DNA of 64,000 bases from Flammeovirgaceae bacterium (GTDB taxonomy: Bacteria > Bacteroidota > Bacteroidia > Cytophagales > Cyclobacteriaceae): the NCBI GenBank assembly GCA_021298015.1, contig JAJTGY010000006.1, forward strand, positions 62,001-126,000, given 5' to 3'. Below, piece by piece: positions 42,863 through 51,612 of this stretch. The notes under the pieces were generated by a model. The model was not told the origin of the DNA. It saw only the letters and a program-made list of their open reading frames with translations, and made no database searches. The translations under genes and the position numbers were made by a program. The first letter of the stretch is position 1; each line of letters opens with the position of its first letter.

Positions 42863-43896
42863 GCCTTTACAAGCTTTTTGTACGTCCCCTGCTTTTTTTG
42901 TTTGACGCAGAGCGCATTCACCACACCATGTTTGGCCTGTTGCGCTTTAATCAAAATCTTCCGGGTTTTTTAGCTCTGCTGCGCGCGCTGTATCGTGTGC
43001 GCGATTCAAAACTGAAACGAACTCTTTTTGGTCTTGAGTTTGAAAATCCGGTTGGGCTGGCGGCCGGGTTTGATAAAGATGCCCGGTTGGTAGATACGAT
43101 GGCAGCCTTTGGTTTTGGTTTCGTAGAGGTGGGCACTCTTACACCACGACCACAACCCGGTAACGACAAGCCACGACTTTTTCGTCTGCCGACCGATCGT
43201 GCGCTGATTAACCGGATGGGCTTTAACAACGAAGGAGTTTTGGCAGCGGTCAACCGCCTGAAGGGCCGAAAGTCGCGGGTGATTGTGGGAGGGAATATCG
43301 GCAAGAACAAGGCAACACCTAACGAGAAAGCATTCGAGGACTACAACTACTGCTTTGAAGCGCTTTACCCGTATGTGGATTATTTTGTGGTGAATGTGAG
43401 TTCGCCCAACACGCCCGGTTTGCGTGAACTGCAGGAAAAGGAACCGTTAACGAACTTGCTGGCGCATGTAAAATCCTTAAGCGCAACCAAACCGAAAGCA
43501 AAGCCGGTGTTGTTGAAAATCGCACCAGACCTCACCCCATCGCAATTGGATGACATCGTGGAGATTCTGAAGGCGACCAAGACAGATGGGATCATCGCCA
43601 CGAATACCACGATCTCACGCGAGGGACTTACTACACCGGCAGCGAGGGTAGCTGCGCTTGGCACAGGCGGACTAAGCGGTGCACCGTTGTCTATAAAATC
43701 AAACGAGGTAATTCGTTATCTGCGCGATCGCCTGGGTCCCGGGTACCCGATTATCGGAGCAGGGGGAATTATGTCGGTGGAAGACGCGCTGGAGAAAATA
43801 AAGGCCGGTGCCGACCTCATTCAGATTTATACCGGCTTCATCTACGAAGGGCCCGGGTTTGTGAAAAAAATCAACCGGGTGCTAGCCCACGCCTAA
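42859..43896 (+). CDS. pyrD: quinone-dependent dihydroorotate dehydrogenase
   Basis: The 345-residue class 2 enzyme oxidises dihydroorotate and passes electrons to menaquinone at the membrane. An N-terminal membrane-associating helix ([20 protein letters not shown]) is followed by [47 protein letters not shown] and [16 protein letters not shown] with the catalytic Ser. [15 protein letters not shown] and [11 protein letters not shown] bind FMN. The GTG start is overlapped with the DUF4136 stop. The pathway partner pyrF is at 57.2 kb. Confidence 0.95.
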
Positions 43897-44825
43897 AACC
43901 GGATCATCGACCGGTCATGAAAACTAAGCACGGGCATGGAGAACCCCAGCGTGATTTCGTGGCTCGTAAAATTCAGCCCCGAATCGGAGCCGGACGGTAA
44001 TTCCAGGATATAGCCCAGGCGCATGCTCTTGAAAACGGCTTGTACCAATAAACCGTACGTTTTGAAATTGCGCGTAAACAAGCCGGCTGAGTAGAGCTCC
44101 TGAAAATTAAACGTAGCATTCAAATCGACCGAAGCGGGTGCACCGCTTGTAGTGCGCAGCAGGGTGGAAGGTTTGAAGCGCCAATCTTCGTTAATGAAAA
44201 AGGTGTACTGACCGAACAGGTAAACGTGTTGTTGATAAAGTTCGATATCCTGTCCGCCCTGGCTAATGGTAGTTGGCAGCAGGCGGGGCACGGAGAGACC
44301 AACGGTATACCGACCGCTTTTGAGCAGCAGCCCGGCACCCGTGTTGAATTTGGTTTCCGTCAGATTGGCAAAGAGCGGGTCTCCACTGTCATACGGATTG
44401 ACCCGTGAAGGGTCATTGGTGTAGCGAACAAATCCGGTTTGCAGTCCGAATGAAAAGGAGGCATTGTTCAGATCAATCTTATAGGAATAAACCCCGGCAA
44501 ACTCGGTAGTTGTGTTTTCGCCAATCTTATCCTGAACCACCTGAATACCCACGCCCACTTTGTTTTGAAACACGGACATATGGCTGTTGAAGTTCAACGT
44601 GATGGGGTTTGCCTCAATGCCGGCCCACTGGGTTCGGTACTGCACGTTGGCATTAAACCGGTTATTACTTCCGGCAAAGGCGGGGTTGATCGCCATCGGG
44701 TTGTTGATGTACTGTGCGTACACCGGGTCTTGCTGCGCGTGGGCAGGTAACCATCCCAATGCGGCAATCAGTAGTACTGATCCTTGCCTGAGGTGTCGCC
44801 TCCTTTTTTCATGATTCCAAAACAT
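43893..44825 (-). CDS. type IX secretion PorP/SprF family outer-membrane protein
   Basis: The 310-residue product has a signal peptide (cleavage near PAHAQQ) and the PorP/SprF signature [27 protein letters not shown]. The rest is barrel-like, with strands ending in aromatic residues. Members are outer-membrane partners of type IX secretion; many paralogues sit next to single cargo genes. Here the neighbour upstream is the lipoprotein at 44833, separated by 7 bp, so the two are probably co-transcribed and fall under operator A. Confidence 0.92.
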
Positions 44826-44832
44826 ACCCTCG

Positions 44833-45336
44833 TTACTTTACCGTAAAGTCCAGTTCCGTTACAATTTCAGCTTTGCCTTTTTTATCAAATATGCGCATCG
44901 TACAGTGGTAGTTTTTGCCTGCTTTCATCGGGTCGCCAACGGTAACGGTGCCGGTAAGCACAGAAGCATCTTGTGCCGAAACGCCCTCGGTGTAGTTGGC
45001 AAATAAGTCGACTTCGTTCAAAACGGCCTGCCCTGCGCTATCCGTTACCTGTAATGATAAGCCGGGGAATACTTTTTGGTTCTCCACCGTGTATCCGGTT
45101 ATGCCGTTATACACAATAGAGAAAGAGGAGTTGAGCGGGACCTCAATACTACTCATGACTTCGTTGTTGCCGTCAACGAGGCTAACGTCTTCGAGGTCAA
45201 ATCCTTCGTATCGCGTGGAGGCCCCCGTGGAAAAATCTTTCTTTACCCCAGATGAAAACGAAACGCCTTTGCCGCCACAGGCAGTGAAAAGCCAGGCAAG
45301 GGTCAGAACGAAAATGGCCGAGGTCAAACGTTTCAT
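44833..45336 (-). CDS. predicted lipoprotein, downstream of operator A
   Basis: Starting at ATG 45336, the 167-residue product has a lipoprotein signal with lipobox LFTAC (Cys20). The mature part is beta-rich (VSFSSGVKKDFSTGASTRYEGFDLEDVSL...), ending ...KGKAEIVTELDFTVK, and looks like an Ig-like or C2-like sandwich. I do not recognise a family. It is preceded by a TACTTTTG -7 box and, 25 nt further up, by the 21-bp operator shared with the gene at 49427. Longer upstream starts would bury the signal peptide. Confidence 0.78.
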   Translation of the reverse strand: MKRLTSAIFVLTLAWLFTACGGKGVSFSSGVKKDFSTGASTRYEGFDLEDVSLVDGNNEVMSSIEVPLNSSFSIVYNGITGYTVENQKVFPGLSLQVTDSAGQAVLNEVDLFANYTEGVSAQDASVLTGTVTVGDPMKAGKNYHCTMRIFDKKGKAEIVTELDFTVK

Positions 45337-45357
45337 GGCGTCATATTTTGGTGTATC

Positions 45358-45365
45358 CAAAAGTA
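45358..45365 (-). promoter_or_regulatory. -7 promoter box TACTTTTG for lipoprotein gene
   Basis: An exact TAnnTTTG box on the minus strand, 21 nt before ATG 45336. The 21-bp site begins 25 nt upstream of it, next to the expected -33 position, where an activator would sit. Confidence 0.6.
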
Positions 45366-45389
45366 GGCTGAAATGCCTGGATTTCCGCT

Positions 45390-45410
45390 CCCCCAAAAAG
45401 GGGATTTTTG
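45390..45410. promoter_or_regulatory. shared 21-bp operator, copy A
   Basis: The site reads CCCCC, A5, GGGG, ATTTTTG on the plus strand. It matches copy B at 50813-50833 at 19 of 21 positions, with the same spacing to the nearest minus-strand start codon (53 versus 45 nt). It also lies 51 nt before the plus-strand kinase gene, so it could serve both directions. The CCCC/GGGG arms can form a small hairpin, but two upstream copies argue for protein binding. Confidence 0.65.
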
Positions 45411-45442
45411 CATTAGTCTGCGGCATCTGCACAAAAGGCGCT

Positions 45443-45450
45443 TAGCTTTG
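45443..45450 (+). promoter_or_regulatory. -7 promoter box TAGCTTTG for sensor kinase
   Basis: An exact TAnnTTTG box 11 nt before ATG 45462 on the plus strand. Operator A lies 32 nt upstream of it. Confidence 0.5.
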
Positions 45451-45461
45451 TTTCAGCTACT

Positions 45462-47438
45462 ATGCAAGTCGGGCGTTTCATACTCAAGAAAATACCGTGG
45501 GCTAATCGCTTATTACCTCATTTGGTGAAAGTGATTTTTGTTGGGGGGATCTGCTTATGCCTGCCGCTTTATGCGAGTGCTCAAGTGACAAAAGCGGATA
45601 GCAGTAAGGTATTGCACTTGTTTACAGAAGGCGAAAAGTTTGAGTTTACAAATCCTGAAAAGGCGATGGCTTACTACGATAGCGCCCGTCAACTTGCTAC
45701 CCAAATTGGGTTTTTGCGCGGTCAAGGTACCTATGCCGGCTACGCTATTGTGGTGCTCAACAACCAGGGTAAGTTTCGCGAGGCGCTGGCATTGTGCCAG
45801 GAGGCACTTCGAATTTTTGAAACAGCCGGAACTCAGCGCGACAAAGCGGTAGCGCATATCAACCTTGGCAATGAGTGGCAGTACTTATCAGATTTTGAGC
45901 TGGCGGCCGAGCATTACCTGAAAGCCAAAAGCATTACCGAAAAGATTGGAGATCGGCCGCTGCTGCGTGTGATCATCAACAACCTCGCTTCAATTTTCAA
46001 CAGCCTGAAGCAGTTTGATAAAGGAAAGCAATATGCCAGTGAAGCACTGGAAATAGCCCGCGACATCAACAGCGACTATAGTGTTGCGTCATCCCTGATC
46101 AATTTGGCGCAAGCCGAATCTAACCTAAATCAATATGCTGAGGCGCTTGCGCATTTTCAGGAAGTGGAAAAAATCGGGGTGAATATATCGGATACGATAT
46201 TGACTATGGACGGATGGCAAGGCCAGGCGGATGTGCAGAAAGTTACGCAGTGCACGGAGGAGGCATCGATTTTATACAAGAAAATTATTCAGCTGGCGGA
46301 GCAACAACAAATGCCCACTTACCAAATGTATAGTTGGATGGGGTTGGCTGATTGCTACTTATTCATGAAAAGATTTGGGCCGGCCGAAGAGGCGATTCAA
46401 AACGGTATTCGCATTGCCCTGGAAACAGGCTCATCGTTTGAACTTCTGGAGCTTTACCGTCAACGATCGGAATTGGCTGAGTTGCGCGGCAACTTTGCAC
46501 AAGCACTGACTTACCGTAAGCAGTTTGAAGTGTTAAAAGATTCTGTAGCTGGCGAGAAAGCCAAAGAAAGTATCAATTTGCTTGAGGCACGGTTTGAATC
46601 GCAGCGCAAGGATGATCAAATCGTTCAACTTGAAAAAGAAAAGGCCACTCAGCAAAGTATTATAAGGCAGAAGAATAGAGTTACCTATCTGCTGATTGCT
46701 GTGGTGTTGGCGGTGCTGCTGCTCATGGGGTTACTCTACCTGAGCTACGCCCAGCGGCAAAGACTACAGAAGCAACGTATTCGCGAGTTGGAAACCGAAA
46801 AGCAACTCATGGCCAGCCAGGCGGTGATCAAGGGCCAGGAAGAAGAACGTGGCCGCCTTGCCAAAGATTTACATGACGGACTGGGTGGCATGTTATCCGG
46901 TGTGAAATTTTCTCTCTCCAATATGAAATCAAATATGGTGTTAGATGCCGACAGTGCATTGGTATTCGAGCGGTCGCTCGACATGCTCGATCACTCCATT
47001 TCTGAGCTTAGGCGCGTGGCGCATAACATGATGCCAGAAGTGCTGGTGAAGTTCGGTCTGGAGGAAGCATTAAAAAGCTACTGCGATTCAGTGCAGCAGT
47101 CGGGTATGCTTGCGGTTAACTTCCAAACCATTGGCGTTTATCAGCGAATGCCAAGTGAAAAGGAGATTATTGTTTATCGGATTGTTCAAGAGTTGGTTGC
47201 TAACGTAGTGAAGCACTCGCGTGCTCGCGCTGTGCTGGTTCAGTTGGCGTGGCAACCTGCCATACTTGATCTCACGGTAGAAGATGACGGAGCCGGCTTT
47301 GATATTGCCATGCTTGAATATTCGCGCGGGGCCGGGTGGGCCAACATTCGCTCGCGCGCAGAATTTTTACGGAGTAAATTGGATATTCAATCATCCGCGG
47401 GTGCGGGCACTTCAGTTCACATGACCATACCTTTATGA
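45462..47438 (+). CDS. TPR-containing sensor histidine kinase (NarL-type, HisKA_3)
   Basis: The 658-residue kinase has a signal peptide or N-terminal membrane segment (residues 22-41) and a sensor region of tetratricopeptide repeats (about 60-370). A coiled coil precedes a membrane helix (408-430). The cytoplasmic part begins with a coiled coil and HisKA_3 box RLAKDLHDGLGGMLSG with phospho-acceptor His471. The ATPase domain has N-box Asn581 in ELVANVVKHS and G-box DDGAGFD near 608. A TPR domain outside the membrane suggests sensing of a protein partner or peptide. The stop overlaps the regulator ATG. Confidence 0.94.
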   Translation: MQVGRFILKKIPWANRLLPHLVKVIFVGGICLCLPLYASAQVTKADSSKVLHLFTEGEKFEFTNPEKAMAYYDSARQLATQIGFLRGQGTYAGYAIVVLNNQGKFREALALCQEALRIFETAGTQRDKAVAHINLGNEWQYLSDFELAAEHYLKAKSITEKIGDRPLLRVIINNLASIFNSLKQFDKGKQYASEALEIARDINSDYSVASSLINLAQAESNLNQYAEALAHFQEVEKIGVNISDTILTMDGWQGQADVQKVTQCTEEASILYKKIIQLAEQQQMPTYQMYSWMGLADCYLFMKRFGPAEEAIQNGIRIALETGSSFELLELYRQRSELAELRGNFAQALTYRKQFEVLKDSVAGEKAKESINLLEARFESQRKDDQIVQLEKEKATQQSIIRQKNRVTYLLIAVVLAVLLLMGLLYLSYAQRQRLQKQRIRELETEKQLMASQAVIKGQEEERGRLAKDLHDGLGGMLSGVKFSLSNMKSNMVLDADSALVFERSLDMLDHSISELRRVAHNMMPEVLVKFGLEEALKSYCDSVQQSGMLAVNFQTIGVYQRMPSEKEIIVYRIVQELVANVVKHSRARAVLVQLAWQPAILDLTVEDDGAGFDIAMLEYSRGAGWANIRSRAEFLRSKLDIQSSAGAGTSVHMTIPL

Positions 47439-48046
47439 CGCGCGTTTTTATTGTTGACGACCACCCGATGGTGATTGAAGGTATGCGCGCCATGCTGACC
47501 CATGTGCCCAACGTGCAGTTGTGTGGTTATGCGATGACCGCAGCATCCTGCCTGGGTTATTTTGCTTCCAATCCGGCCGATGTCGTGCTGCTGGATATCA
47601 ATCTGCCGGATCAAAGCGGAATTGACGTTTGTCGTGTATTGATGCAGAAGCAACCGCAATTAAAGGTAGTAGCATTGACCAATTTTGATCAGCTCGCCTA
47701 TCTGCAACAAATGAAAGATGCCGGGGCGCGCGGCTATCTGCTCAAGAATGCCTCGCTCGATGAATTAGGTGCAGCTATTGCTGCCGTAACCAGCGGTGGC
47801 GAATATTGGCTTGGCAAAGACTCCCTTCGCGAAAGCTTCGGCCAGCAGAATCAATTGCTGCTCACCAGGCGCGAGATTGAAGTTCTGCGTCTTATTGCGG
47901 AGGGCCTGACCAATCACGAGATTGCTGCAAAACTGTTTATCAGTGACAGTACCGCGGACTCGCATCGCAAGAATTTGATTTCCAAACTTCAAGTGAAAAA
48001 TACGGCTGCGTTGGTGCGCACCGCGATTGAAAACAAAATTATTTAG
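47435..48046 (+). CDS. LuxR/NarL-family response regulator
   Basis: The 203-residue regulator has a receiver domain with Asp8-Asp9, phospho-acceptor Asp54 in VVLLDINLPDQSG, Thr/Lys in KVVALTNF and GYLLKNASLDEL. The C-terminal helix-turn-helix (LTRREIEVLRLIAEGLTNHEIAAKL onwards) is of LuxR type. It is the cognate partner of the kinase by overlap (ATGA). It is the most likely protein to bind the 21-bp site, though binding has not been shown. Confidence 0.95.
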   Translation: MTRVFIVDDHPMVIEGMRAMLTHVPNVQLCGYAMTAASCLGYFASNPADVVLLDINLPDQSGIDVCRVLMQKQPQLKVVALTNFDQLAYLQQMKDAGARGYLLKNASLDELGAAIAAVTSGGEYWLGKDSLRESFGQQNQLLLTRREIEVLRLIAEGLTNHEIAAKLFISDSTADSHRKNLISKLQVKNTAALVRTAIENKII

Positions 48047-48048
48047 GC

Positions 48049-49425
48049 ATGAGATCGCTCGTTTTTCTGCTGGTTCTGTTGGTGCCATGGTTTTTACTTC
48101 AGGCGCAACCGCGCGAGAAATTTGATATCACAAGTTTTACACCGCCCAGCGGGTGGCAACGGGAAGCTACGGACAATGTGGTTTCGTTTGTGAAAACCAA
48201 CGAGGTCTCTCGTGGCTGGTGCAGGATCTCTGTATTTAAGAGTATGAACAGCACCGGCACTCCTCGCTCTGATTTTGACAATGAGTGGCGGCAATTGGTG
48301 GCGGGTACTTACTCAGGTGCCGTAAAGCCTCAGCCCGAGCTGACGGATGAAGACGGCTGGACGTCCTGCTCGGGCGTTTCCACTTTCGAGTTTGAACAGA
48401 GGACCGCTTACCTGCTGCTGACCAGCATTACCGGGTATGGTCTCCGGTTTTCGGTATTGGTGCTCATGAACAATGAAGAATTTATGCCTCAGGTCGAAAG
48501 CTTTTTGGGTTCGATTGATCTCACCAAACCAACGGCAGTTGCTGCACCGCCAGTCGTACAGCCCGGCTCCGGAACTGCGGTTAGCACGACATCCGGCCGC
48601 GCATTTACGGCACCCATCACCAAAGCAACGACCAACTTCAACGATGGATGGGTTGCCACGATGGCGGCCGGGAAAGTGGTGGTTGTGCGCGGTAAGGTTC
48701 GCGTTCACCTATACTATCCGCTCGGCTATGATGACGCGTCAAGACGTGCCGGGCGGGATTTTTTCTGGGATAACCGACTCGGATCAGAGTTCCAGTTGCT
48801 CACCAAGCAATACCGGGATCACGGTGAAATGATTTCCTCTTTCCAGGCACCGTACATCGAAGGAGAGGCAATTGATCGCCAGACGAATCAACGCGTGTTT
48901 CTCGGTTTGTATGTAAACTCGGAAGGGGGCAACATGTTTCCGATACTGGCCGTAGCGCCCGATGAACAAACCCTGCGCAATACATTTCCAAAGGCCGAGA
49001 ACCAGTTCGAGTCCGATCTGGCCGCCATGAACGGCTACAACAAGTTTGCGGTAACGCTGAAAGATTTGGAAGGCAGATGGACAGGCGGTGGAACAACCGC
49101 AGCGAACTATTACAACGCGTACACAGGCGCCTATGCGGGCATGGGTGCTGTGGCGATGAGCGATCGTTTTGAGTTTATGGCAAATGGTGACTATACCAGC
49201 CGCCACCAGGGTGCGTCTGGCATGGTAGGTTCCATGTCCACGTATTCACAAGACTATAAAGGGAAGGCAACCGTTACGGATTGGAATGCCGTGCTCACGA
49301 ATCGGTTCAAAGGAGCAACCACCAACTTTAACGCGTGGTTTGAGGCGGTACAAGGCGGAGTAGTTCTTCACTTACAAGACTCCCAGTACAGCGGCCTGAA
49401 GTTTGACCTGGTGCGCGAGCGTTGA
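48049..49425 (+). CDS. exported protein, paralogue of gene at 49427
   Basis: The 458-residue product has a signal peptide (LVFLLVLLVPWFLLQAQ) and two parts. The N-terminal half (DITSFTPPSGWQREATDNVVSFVKT..) has an extracytoplasmic domain similar to those that read stress or export signals. A Pro/Thr-rich linker (residues 165-190) follows. The C-terminal half carries TTNFNDGWVAT, MNGYNKFAVTLKDLEGRWTGGG and a beta-rich end, all shared with the convergent gene. It starts 2 bp after the regulator stop, so it belongs to the kinase-regulator operon. No family is recognised. Confidence 0.8.
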   Translation: MRSLVFLLVLLVPWFLLQAQPREKFDITSFTPPSGWQREATDNVVSFVKTNEVSRGWCRISVFKSMNSTGTPRSDFDNEWRQLVAGTYSGAVKPQPELTDEDGWTSCSGVSTFEFEQRTAYLLLTSITGYGLRFSVLVLMNNEEFMPQVESFLGSIDLTKPTAVAAPPVVQPGSGTAVSTTSGRAFTAPITKATTNFNDGWVATMAAGKVVVVRGKVRVHLYYPLGYDDASRRAGRDFFWDNRLGSEFQLLTKQYRDHGEMISSFQAPYIEGEAIDRQTNQRVFLGLYVNSEGGNMFPILAVAPDEQTLRNTFPKAENQFESDLAAMNGYNKFAVTLKDLEGRWTGGGTTAANYYNAYTGAYAGMGAVAMSDRFEFMANGDYTSRHQGASGMVGSMSTYSQDYKGKATVTDWNAVLTNRFKGATTNFNAWFEAVQGGVVLHLQDSQYSGLKFDLVRER

Positions 49426-49426
49426 A

Positions 49427-50767
49427 TTATTCTTTGCCAAAGCCCGTAAATCCACCGTATGACGTATCCTGTAGCCAGAGAATACGTGCGCCTTTGCGTT
49501 CGCACGTGAAATAGGCATTATAAAGCCGGGGTTTCTTTTCAATTTCGGAAAAGTTGATCTGCCAGTTGTTTGGCATGGTAAACCTTCCGCCCGACTTGGC
49601 ACCGTCAAATTTGATGTTACCTACGAACCCGCTGGCGGTACTCAACTGCCAGTCATAGGTGCCATCCTCCCGAAACGCAAACCATTCGGCAGAGGAGTGC
49701 GTGTTAGTAGAGGTTGCTCCGGTGTACACATTGATATAATTCGTAAATCCTCCGAACGAACTACTCCAACGGCCGGTCAGGTCAGCAGGGGCAACCGCAA
49801 ATTTGTTGTATCCGTTCATCTTGCGGAGGGGGTCAAATGTGGTCGTAGCGTAATAGTCAACCTGATTGATGTTTACACCAAACGCCTGGATAAAGGTATC
49901 TTGGTCAGGCGCAATAAACTCCATCCAGTTGGATTGCCCCATTTTGAAGAGCACGACAAACTTGTTCAATCCGCTTTCGGGCTCACGGACCTGCGCCAGG
50001 AGAAGATGTGGACGTTCAAAACCAATACTCGAGGGGCCTTCGGTGTAGGAAACCGATCCGTAGCGGGGTACGATGAAGGTATTCCAGGCCAGCCGGTCCT
50101 CCTCGCGGTAGTCGGAGATATAAGCGCTCGTTTCTTTGGTGTGGAAGTGTATCAGGATTTTGATGCCCGATTTGGTCACCTCGACCCAATCGTCTTTGGC
50201 GGTGGCTACCCAACCATCGTCAAAGTTCGTGGTGTGAAATGCGAAACGGCTATTTGTCAAAGCCGAGTTGCCTTTTGATGTCGGGTTTATGGCCGCCTGG
50301 TCCGGAGTATTCACCGGGGGTTCAACAACCTGCGAGGGAGGAGATGGGTTTTCGGCTGTCTGTACGGAGCACAAATAAAAAGTGGTTTCTTTTGACGCGG
50401 ACTTCAGATAGATGAGTACCCGTTGTTGACCCCGTTGAAGAAGGTAGTTAGATGGCGTGGGAAGCGCGAGGACGGTCCAATTATTTTTGGCTATCTCGTC
50501 CCAAATCCATTTTTCAGAAGCGGCACCGGGTGGCAGGCTCAATACCTCCGTGTCGTTGCTTAGCTTGAGGTTATTGTCTTCCGCCTCCATGTCGAGCAGG
50601 GTTTGCGCGGCTGCCGTGGACAACAGCCGGCTATCGCGCTTACTGCCTGTCGGCAATGAGATGCCCATGACATTCGATGAACCGGCCAAAACCAGTTTGC
50701 TTTGTGCTGAACTGGTGCCGGCAGCCAATAGCCAAAAGAATGCGAAGACTACACGCAACGTTTTCAT
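49427..50767 (-). CDS. exported protein, paralogue of gene at 48049, under operator B
   Basis: From ATG 50767 the product has 446 residues with a signal peptide (VVFAFFWLLAAGTSSAQ). The N-terminal half differs from its paralogue. After a Pro-rich linker (SPPSQVVEPPVNTPDQA) the C-terminal half matches it: TTNFDDGWVATAKDDWVEV, MNGYNKFAVAPADLTGRWSSS and NYINVYTGA. The two genes converge tail to tail with one base between their stops. Copy B of the 21-bp site lies 45 nt upstream of the start codon. Confidence 0.8.
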   Translation of the reverse strand: MKTLRVVFAFFWLLAAGTSSAQSKLVLAGSSNVMGISLPTGSKRDSRLLSTAAAQTLLDMEAEDNNLKLSNDTEVLSLPPGAASEKWIWDEIAKNNWTVLALPTPSNYLLQRGQQRVLIYLKSASKETTFYLCSVQTAENPSPPSQVVEPPVNTPDQAAINPTSKGNSALTNSRFAFHTTNFDDGWVATAKDDWVEVTKSGIKILIHFHTKETSAYISDYREEDRLAWNTFIVPRYGSVSYTEGPSSIGFERPHLLLAQVREPESGLNKFVVLFKMGQSNWMEFIAPDQDTFIQAFGVNINQVDYYATTTFDPLRKMNGYNKFAVAPADLTGRWSSSFGGFTNYINVYTGATSTNTHSSAEWFAFREDGTYDWQLSTASGFVGNIKFDGAKSGGRFTMPNNWQINFSEIEKKPRLYNAYFTCERKGARILWLQDTSYGGFTGFGKE

Positions 50768-50812
50768 GGGGTTTTCGGAGACGAAATTCTCAAAAAAACT
50801 ACACAACGAAAT

Positions 50813-50833
50813 CCCGCAAAAGGGGGATTTTTG
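50813..50833 (-). promoter_or_regulatory. shared 21-bp operator, copy B
   Basis: The site reads CCCGC, A4, GGGGG, ATTTTTG on the plus strand. It differs from copy A (45390-45410) at only two positions. No plus-strand gene starts nearby, so this copy should control the minus-strand gene at 49427. Confidence 0.65.
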
Positions 50834-50862
50834 TCCGATCAGCGAAGTGCCAGTGTCGGGTT

Positions 50863-51612
50863 CTAGTCGTTTTTTCGTTGAATAGACTTCTCGTACAGTT
50901 CTTTGTTGACCCGGTAGGTTGTCTTGCTCGGCTCTCCTTTTTCAAAAATCAGATCATTCCCTTCTGTTGTGGCAACGGGAGCCTGGGCAAGCCAGTTCAG
51001 TATTCCTCGGTACTCGGTAGTAAAATAGTCCGCCAGTTGGATAACACGTGTGGAGTCCACCACATTAACCAATACTTCGGAGGACGTCAAATCGAAGGTG
51101 ACTCCGCAGGTCGGACATTCTTTTGTCAGTATTCGCTCCCGTAGTCGTTGGCTATCCTGGCCGCGAGTATCCGTGTCTGAGTAGCCAGCGATGAGCGTAT
51201 CCTGACGGAACAGGTAGACTGACCTTGTTTTGATGACTTCATTTTCGCGTTCTTCTGTGAAAACCCAAAGCCGCCCTTGCTGATCGAGATACCACGACTT
51301 TTCGCCTGTTTGAATGCTGAAGTACTTTTGGCGACCATATTCCTCAAGAAGGGGAAACAACCCGGACCCAATCGTTGACTCGTTCTCATCCCTTGTCAAA
51401 ATTTTGGTCGAGTACTTAGGCAGCACCGGGAGTGAGGCGAACCTTAGATCGGGTATGGTTGCTGCCGAGGCGTCAGCCGGTTGGCTTCCGGGATTGGCTT
51501 CTTTGGCTTCTTGTTGATTTTTGCTACACGAAACCAATAAAATCAGGAATAGGAGGTGAAGCGATTTCACCGGCAAGGACAATCGATTGAGCACGTTTTG
51601 GCCTTTAATCAT
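50863..51612 (-). CDS. predicted lipoprotein of unknown function
   Basis: From ATG 51612 the 249-residue product has a lipoprotein signal (LHLLFLILLVSC) followed by a polar linker (EAKEANPGSQPADAS). Beta-rich sequence follows that includes an ECPTCG Cys pair. No family is recognised. The start overlaps the S9 peptidase stop by 8 nt, so it is transcribed with that gene. Its 3' end lies about 30 bp from operator B, so its transcript may read into it. Confidence 0.72.
   Translation of the reverse strand: MIKGQNVLNRLSLPVKSLHLLFLILLVSCSKNQQEAKEANPGSQPADASAATIPDLRFASLPVLPKYSTKILTRDENESTIGSGLFPLLEEYGRQKYFSIQTGEKSWYLDQQGRLWVFTEERENEVIKTRSVYLFRQDTLIAGYSDTDTRGQDSQRLRERILTKECPTCGVTFDLTSSEVLVNVVDSTRVIQLADYFTTEYRGILNWLAQAPVATTEGNDLIFEKGEPSKTTYRVNKELYEKSIQRKND

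Follow-up and report, generated by a model that had tools for sequence, protein, structure and literature searches.

Two copies of a 20-bp element, AAAATCCCCTTTTTnGGGGA, were identified in a 64,000-nt stretch of DNA from a Flammeovirgaceae bacterium (contig JAJTGY010000006.1, positions 62,001 to 126,000; the whole stretch is called the window, and positions are given within it), where they flank the genes of a two-component system. The element is real and conserved and is most probably the operator of a small secreted-protein regulon, larger than first noted, in which the two-component operon is probably included, and we infer that it belongs to the NarL/LuxR-type response regulator encoded at 47435-48046. 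Judged from sequence, this regulator quite probably acts through the element to activate both the secreted-protein genes and its own operon. The element and its conservation, the class of gene that it precedes, the preferred distances to -7 boxes on both of its sides and its co-occurrence with one regulator clade are established at the level of DNA and protein comparison.

An earlier note on this DNA had reported two near-identical 21-bp sites, and these were confirmed: CCCCCAAAAAGGGGATTTTTG (45390-45410) and CCCGCAAAAGGGGGATTTTTG (50813-50833) are identical at 19/21 positions and are the only matches to the 21-mer in the 64-kb window at up to three mismatches, whereas the average over 100 shuffles was 0.05 and the maximum 1. 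Both are copies of the conserved 20-bp element, which the register seen in relatives sets as a 20-mer on the minus strand, at 45389-45408 (copy A, AAAATCCCCTTTTTGGGGGA), between divergent lipoprotein and kinase genes, and at 50812-50831 (copy B, AAAATCCCCCTTTTGCGGGA), in the upstream region of the gene for a secreted protein, SecP2. The spacings given in the note, roughly 45-55 nt to minus-strand start codons and 51 nt to the kinase gene, were recovered as well, site A lying 53 nt from the lipoprotein ATG (45336, minus strand) and 51 nt from the kinase ATG (45462), and site B 45 nt from the SecP2 ATG (50767, minus strand). The source genome (G000; 3.6 Mb in 115 contigs, 99.5% complete) has no exact 20-mers other than the two in the window; a third copy, with one mismatch, lies outside the window (G000:C67:1128-1147), 88 nt upstream of the start codon of a gene whose secreted product has a marginal beta-helix match, below the Pfam cut-off. 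At three mismatches there were 34 forward or reverse matches in this genome versus 15 for the backward control, and weaker copies are therefore indistinguishable from chance. Of the proposal that the sites define a candidate local regulon, the surface-protein targets stand; a purely local regulon does not, given the third site in G000, the further sites in relatives and the kinase-regulator-SecP1 operon (SecP1 being a paralogue of SecP2) as another likely target.

Conservation was assessed in 62 genomes of the genus with the 20-mer AAAATCCCYYTTTNNNGGGA. At up to one mismatch, 69 sites were found in 27 genomes, compared with 5 matches for the backward pattern. The sites were sorted manually into 38 forward sites, which precede a same-strand gene (in nearly every case one for a secreted protein or lipoprotein), 7 sites between kinase and regulator genes, 6 before genes for NSVGIG secreted proteins, 9 copies of a different palindrome and 9 others that lie inside genes or have no clear target. 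A logo of the sites is biased at the fixed positions of the pattern. Among 20 regulator loci from relatives, the element stands before the lipoprotein orthologue in five (L035, L036, L037, L038 and L039) and between the kinase and regulator genes in three others (L043, L045 and L046). The pattern thus recurs upstream of orthologous genes in relatives, both lipoprotein and secreted-protein genes, as the earlier note had envisaged.

Two of the smaller classes differ in character. The palindrome AAAATCCCGCTTTC/TGCGGGA (AAAATCCCGC-TTTC/T-GCGGGA) is present in 9 copies in 8 of the 62 genomes (L112 4072, L116 4076, L118 2470, L122 2570, L125 4054, L131 4027, L132 4070, L136 4046 and L108 1501); it is terminator- or repeat-like, and its copies were set aside on that ground. 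The six NSVGIG-class 20-mers (L115 4005, L121 4076, L129 4028, L133 3995, L144 4079 and L105 1501) are in reverse orientation before their genes, four of them with a conserved CGATTACCTG stretch. Beyond the genus exact matches are rare, with 8 sites left in the family and order sets versus 8 backward-control matches, a count that omits G147 and G203, where the regulator is beside the site, and G354. In the last, which belongs to another family, an exact 20-mer (L280 4044) precedes an orphan kinase 46% identical to that of the window, and no regulator match was seen in the 8-kb locus.

On the secreted-protein side, a -7 box resembling TAnnTTTG lies 22-23 nt past the element. The fit used 31 of the 38 forward sites, five near-copies and two second sites at one promoter being left out, and boxes with at least 5/6 fixed bases were found in 17/31 and with at least 4/6 in 29/31 (offsets 21-25); four were perfect. 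The clustering of 17 sites was reached by 0/500 shuffles in any 5-nt window, where the maximum was 10. Six of the seven sites outside the fit also have a box of at least 4/6 at 21-24 nt, one of these being poor and lacking the TTT core. At copy A the exact -7 box already reported is TACTTTTG (45358-45365, minus strand), 23 nt past the operator, the proposed promoter of the lipoprotein and PorP/SprF genes; a second exact box, TAGCTTTG (45443-45450, plus strand), had been overlooked. At copy B a weak candidate, GAATTTCG (50782-50789, minus strand), lies 22 nt past the operator of SecP2.

The claim that matches precede genes with signal peptides also held, since 30/31 chosen forward targets were signal-peptide-like, compared with 220/432 other genes (at least 150 aa) in the fetched loci, by a home-made rule that is crude and lenient and with one lipoprotein gene counted twice. 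The set used for spacing and that used for targets and stems (31 each) differ by one site (site 48, with no gene called downstream, versus site 4). The target families include the lipoprotein family, SecP1/SecP2-type, beta-helix-like and TVSNNP proteins, and further targets are an outer-membrane beta-barrel protein (PF13568) and an NHL-repeat protein.

The sequence of the element could also be read as an intrinsic terminator or attenuator, because on the plus strand CCCC-AAAAA-GGGG would form a short hairpin followed by ATTTTT. Site A is terminator-like on that strand (5 pairs), and the seven intergenic sites lie just past the kinase stop codon, the hairpin being followed by T's. The region has 5 terminator-like matches where shuffles averaged 7.1, which makes the one at site A unremarkable. 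The two proposed promoters at copy A are directed away from the element, so neither transcript would contain it. The stem is not preserved as such: 15/31 sites have at least one broken arm pair and none has compensatory double changes, which the search pattern itself disfavours, while the T-run of the loop and the spacing to the -7 boxes are kept. The 38/69 forward sites, moreover, precede same-strand genes rather than lying at gene ends. We consider a terminator very unlikely.

A second set of spacings was found on the other side of the element. Reverse sites, 24 in all, were taken where a kinase or regulator gene lies on that side, together with five sites from outside loci, and G007 was left out as a near-copy. 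Perfect TAnnTTTG boxes were present at 11/24 of these sites, several of which are from close relatives, four at 34 nt and seven at 44-46 nt, with none elsewhere between 0 and 79 nt; the clustering of boxes of at least 5/6 (8 sites in a 2-nt window) was reached by 0/500 shuffles. At copy A the box TAGCTTTG, the proposed promoter of the kinase-regulator-SecP1 genes, lies 34 nt past the operator on this other side. All seven sites between kinase and regulator genes, some of them from close relatives, have TTG at 11 nt and a 4/6 or 5/6 box at 34-35 nt, giving a TTG-to-box (-33/-7) spacing of 20-21 nt in each. Sigma-A promoters of Bacteroidota carry a TTG -33 element 19-21 nt upstream of the -7 box; at copy A this -33 element was not seen.

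The box distances of 22-23, 34 and 44-46 nt differ by steps of about 11 bp, or one helical turn. The sigma-A box TAnnTTTG of Flavobacterium psychrophilum is placed at -12 to -5 (PMC9723704), which would put the operator centres at about -44.5, -56.5 and -67.5. For comparison, the ogt promoter of Escherichia coli is activated by NarL from sites at -44.5 and -77.5 and, in an engineered version, at -67.5 (PMC7419079). The regulator might instead bind the element and repress, or activate one side and repress the other. The perfect -7 boxes on the kinase side might need no activator, and a dimer bound nearby could also interfere. On the forward side, by contrast, most -7 boxes are degenerate and the element stands immediately before them, where an activator usually binds, and the 11-bp steps are more suggestive of contact with polymerase than of a steric block. 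Overall, repression in place of activation is a rather doubtful alternative, and is least improbable on the kinase side.

Ownership of the operator was addressed by comparing its distribution with that of the regulator. When 44 regulators were placed in a tree, those of 19 motif genomes fell within one clade of 23 (support 99/94). The motif label was assigned manually, and the sister-clade genomes G032 and G018, each with one 1-mismatch match elsewhere in the genome, were unlabelled. The clade comprises 24 of the 62 genomes once G010, with a regulator truncated at the end of a contig, is included; the 38 others are outside it by the tree, or have a best match of at most 47% identity, or have none at 1e-38, and some are not in the tree. 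Exact copies occur in 15/24 clade genomes and 0/38 others (Fisher p 1.4e-8), and with up to one mismatch and palindromic CCCGC sites excluded the counts are 19/24 and 8/38 (p 8e-6), although these p-values overstate independence because the genomes are related. Within the genus the pattern follows the clade of this regulator, as the note had anticipated. The eight fetched sister-clade loci contain no copy within four mismatches of the 21-mer, and a search of sister-clade loci for a shared dyad found none.

Loci outside the 62 genomes behaved similarly. Four of four with regulators 74-80% identical (L193, L194, L195 and L209) carry an exact copy some 2 kb ahead of the regulator, at the place of the kinase-divergent copy, and L214, with a regulator only 48% identical, has no exact copy. 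G203, another outside genome (regulator 74% identical), was found through the motif, with the regulator beside the site. In 25 near loci (330 kb), mostly from genomes that had already served in defining the motif, there were 20 exact copies, compared with no exact and one 1-mismatch copy in 54 loci (761 kb) with regulators below 48% identity.

Several observations weigh against this interpretation. With respect to spacing, the site B box matches only 4 of 6 bases, one of the seven forward sites outside the fit (L195 11329) has no box, 13/24 reverse sites lack a perfect box at any offset, and G007 breaks the 34/45 rule, its best box (5/6) lying at 70 nt. At the expected distances the six NSVGIG-class copies lack a good -7 box, which breaks the spacing rule, and they were set aside because no spacing fits. 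Four exact copies are without a convincing forward secreted target (G027:C13, G081:C109, G081:C112 and the upstream copy in G011:C194). With respect to distribution, the eight of 38 genomes that have a 1-mismatch match and no clade regulator mostly look like chance, but G064 (89% complete) has two real-looking sites, one of them between lipoprotein and SecP1 orthologues, and G034 (100% complete) has one ahead of the gene for a TVSNNP protein and 23 nt from a 5/6 box. Conversely, five of the 24 clade genomes have no match at up to one mismatch: in three (G010, G029 and G070) the relevant region is lost at the end of a contig; G024 carries, where the element would be expected, a variant shorter by one base; and the 3.6-kb locus of G071 contains nothing within three mismatches.

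The sites in G064 and G034, in good position in genomes lacking the clade regulator, would also fit a genuine activator operator recognised by a different regulator, which would control both the system and its targets while the LuxR-type regulator merely travels with them. Candidates exist, since G000 holds 18 regulator matches at E ≤ 0.001 (6 to 53 across 36 genus genomes), among which the regulator encoded beside the sites is the probable binder. Yet the motif tracks a single regulator clade and is missing from the eight sister-clade loci, many clade loci have sites at the kinase or regulator promoter, and the dyad and its position fit a dimer of the NarL family. Another regulator is improbable, and would explain the clade-specific co-occurrence less simply than does the regulator encoded at the locus.

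The nearest relative, G007 (locus L035), has a regulator 99% identical to that of the window, and its DNA is 98.5% identical over 47434-50900 and 95.8% over 43894-45408. Between these segments, from the outer edge of copy A (45408) to the start of the regulator gene (47434), the sequence is replaced in G007; only a short catalytic stretch aligns (74%), and the kinase is 37% identical to the window's. This resembles an apparent sensor swap, in which output and operator appear to have been kept and the sensor changed, or in which the window's kinase would be the newcomer. A more speculative extension, to which we give a low probability, is that the locus forms a unit with an exchangeable sensor, a 37%-identical kinase feeding a regulator, operator and targets that are 94-99% identical so that one output is kept while the input is swapped; SecP1 could be the secreted partner by which the system reads its own products, and the bidirectional operator would set both sides by helical phasing.

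The regulator (47435-48046, plus strand) is a member of the NarL/FixJ (LuxR-type) family by its receiver (PF00072, E 2e-23) and GerE (PF00196, E 6.8e-19) domains, and its sequence matches in the PDB are ChrA, DevR, VraR and NarL, DevR being second-best. Its likely cognate kinase is the adjoining tetratricopeptide-repeat (TPR) sensor histidine kinase (45462-47438, plus strand; TPR, HisKA_3 with E 6.3e-9, and HATPase_c), whose gene overlaps that of the regulator by 4 nt. SecP1 (48049-49425, plus strand; 458 aa), encoded from 2 nt after the regulator gene, completes a closely packed plus-strand set, to which SecP2 (49427-50767, minus strand), with about 27% identity to SecP1 over the C-terminal part, is convergent. 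SecP1 has no Pfam family; a PsbP/Mog1-like N-terminal domain is weakly hinted at by a fold match (PsbP, TM 0.62 of target), and the C-terminal region has 8 strands. Its gene immediately follows that of the regulator in 16 of the 29 loci inspected, 14 of these in the 24 clade genomes, and among the rest some stop shortly past the regulator. Sister-clade regulators (L052, L050 and L053) are likewise near genes for proteins with SecP1-type N-domains, so the link to SecP-like proteins may predate the operator.

Beyond copy A, the lipoprotein (44833-45336, minus strand; 167 aa) has no Pfam match; its model is a confident beta-sandwich (pLDDT 86.5), and a fold search gave a weak hint of likeness to NPC2/ML lipid-binding proteins (about 0.5-0.6). 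Its gene is followed after 7 nt by one for a PorP/SprF-family outer-membrane protein (43893-44825, minus strand; PF11751, E 6.6e-65). Near-identical or related loci in named records come from uncultured Cyclobacteriaceae and other Cytophagales.

From these data we infer binding, phosphorylation, the direction of activation, start sites, operon structure and a signal. The TPR kinase would phosphorylate the regulator, a dimer of which would bind the dyad TCCCC-N6-GGGGA with its A-tract flank. Centred at about -44.5/-45.5, the dimer would activate the lipoprotein and PorP/SprF genes from copy A and SecP2 from copy B, and the beta-helix-like protein encoded elsewhere in G000 would be a further activated target. 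The regulator's own kinase-regulator-SecP1 operon would be activated from the opposite side of copy A, with the dimer centred at about -56.5, or at about -67.5 in several relatives.

Two-component control of surface proteins is known in Bacteroidota from PorX-PorY, which controls type IX secretion; PorX is not known to be of the GerE type and works with an extracytoplasmic function (ECF) sigma factor, unlike the GerE-type regulator described here. The operator of DevR/DosR is a 20-bp palindrome. The DevR/DosR regulon also has a NarL-family regulator, with a promoter-proximal box that overlaps the -35 element (PMC3029386); operator, kinase and targets are different, and the promoters there are cooperative and multi-box, whereas here sites are mostly single. 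E. coli NarL at ogt (PMC7419079) is likewise a GerE-type response regulator, with activating dimer sites at -44.5 and an engineered -67.5, but it has 7-2-7 sites of other sequence, a sigma70-type -10 and a nitrate signal. The present system has instead a longer A-tract/TCCCC-N6-GGGGA dyad, a Bacteroidota -7 box and a TPR sensor. The Flavobacterium sigma-A promoters share the TAnnTTTG boxes used here, in a source devoted to sigma-factor motifs whose main text does not contain the words LuxR or response regulator (PMC9723704).

A search of titles and abstracts of open-licence papers found no description of the motif or regulon, and an exact-letter search was also empty; the kind of system is already known, and this regulon and its motif were not found in those papers. 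To our knowledge, few operators of NarL/LuxR-type regulators have been described in Bacteroidota. The results provide a sequence-defined candidate operator for one such regulator, with a clearly predictive promoter geometry, and a testable list of targets that are largely secreted or lipid-anchored proteins of unknown function. The combination of footprint and spacing used here could assign operators to other uncharacterised pairs of TPR kinases and LuxR-type regulators.

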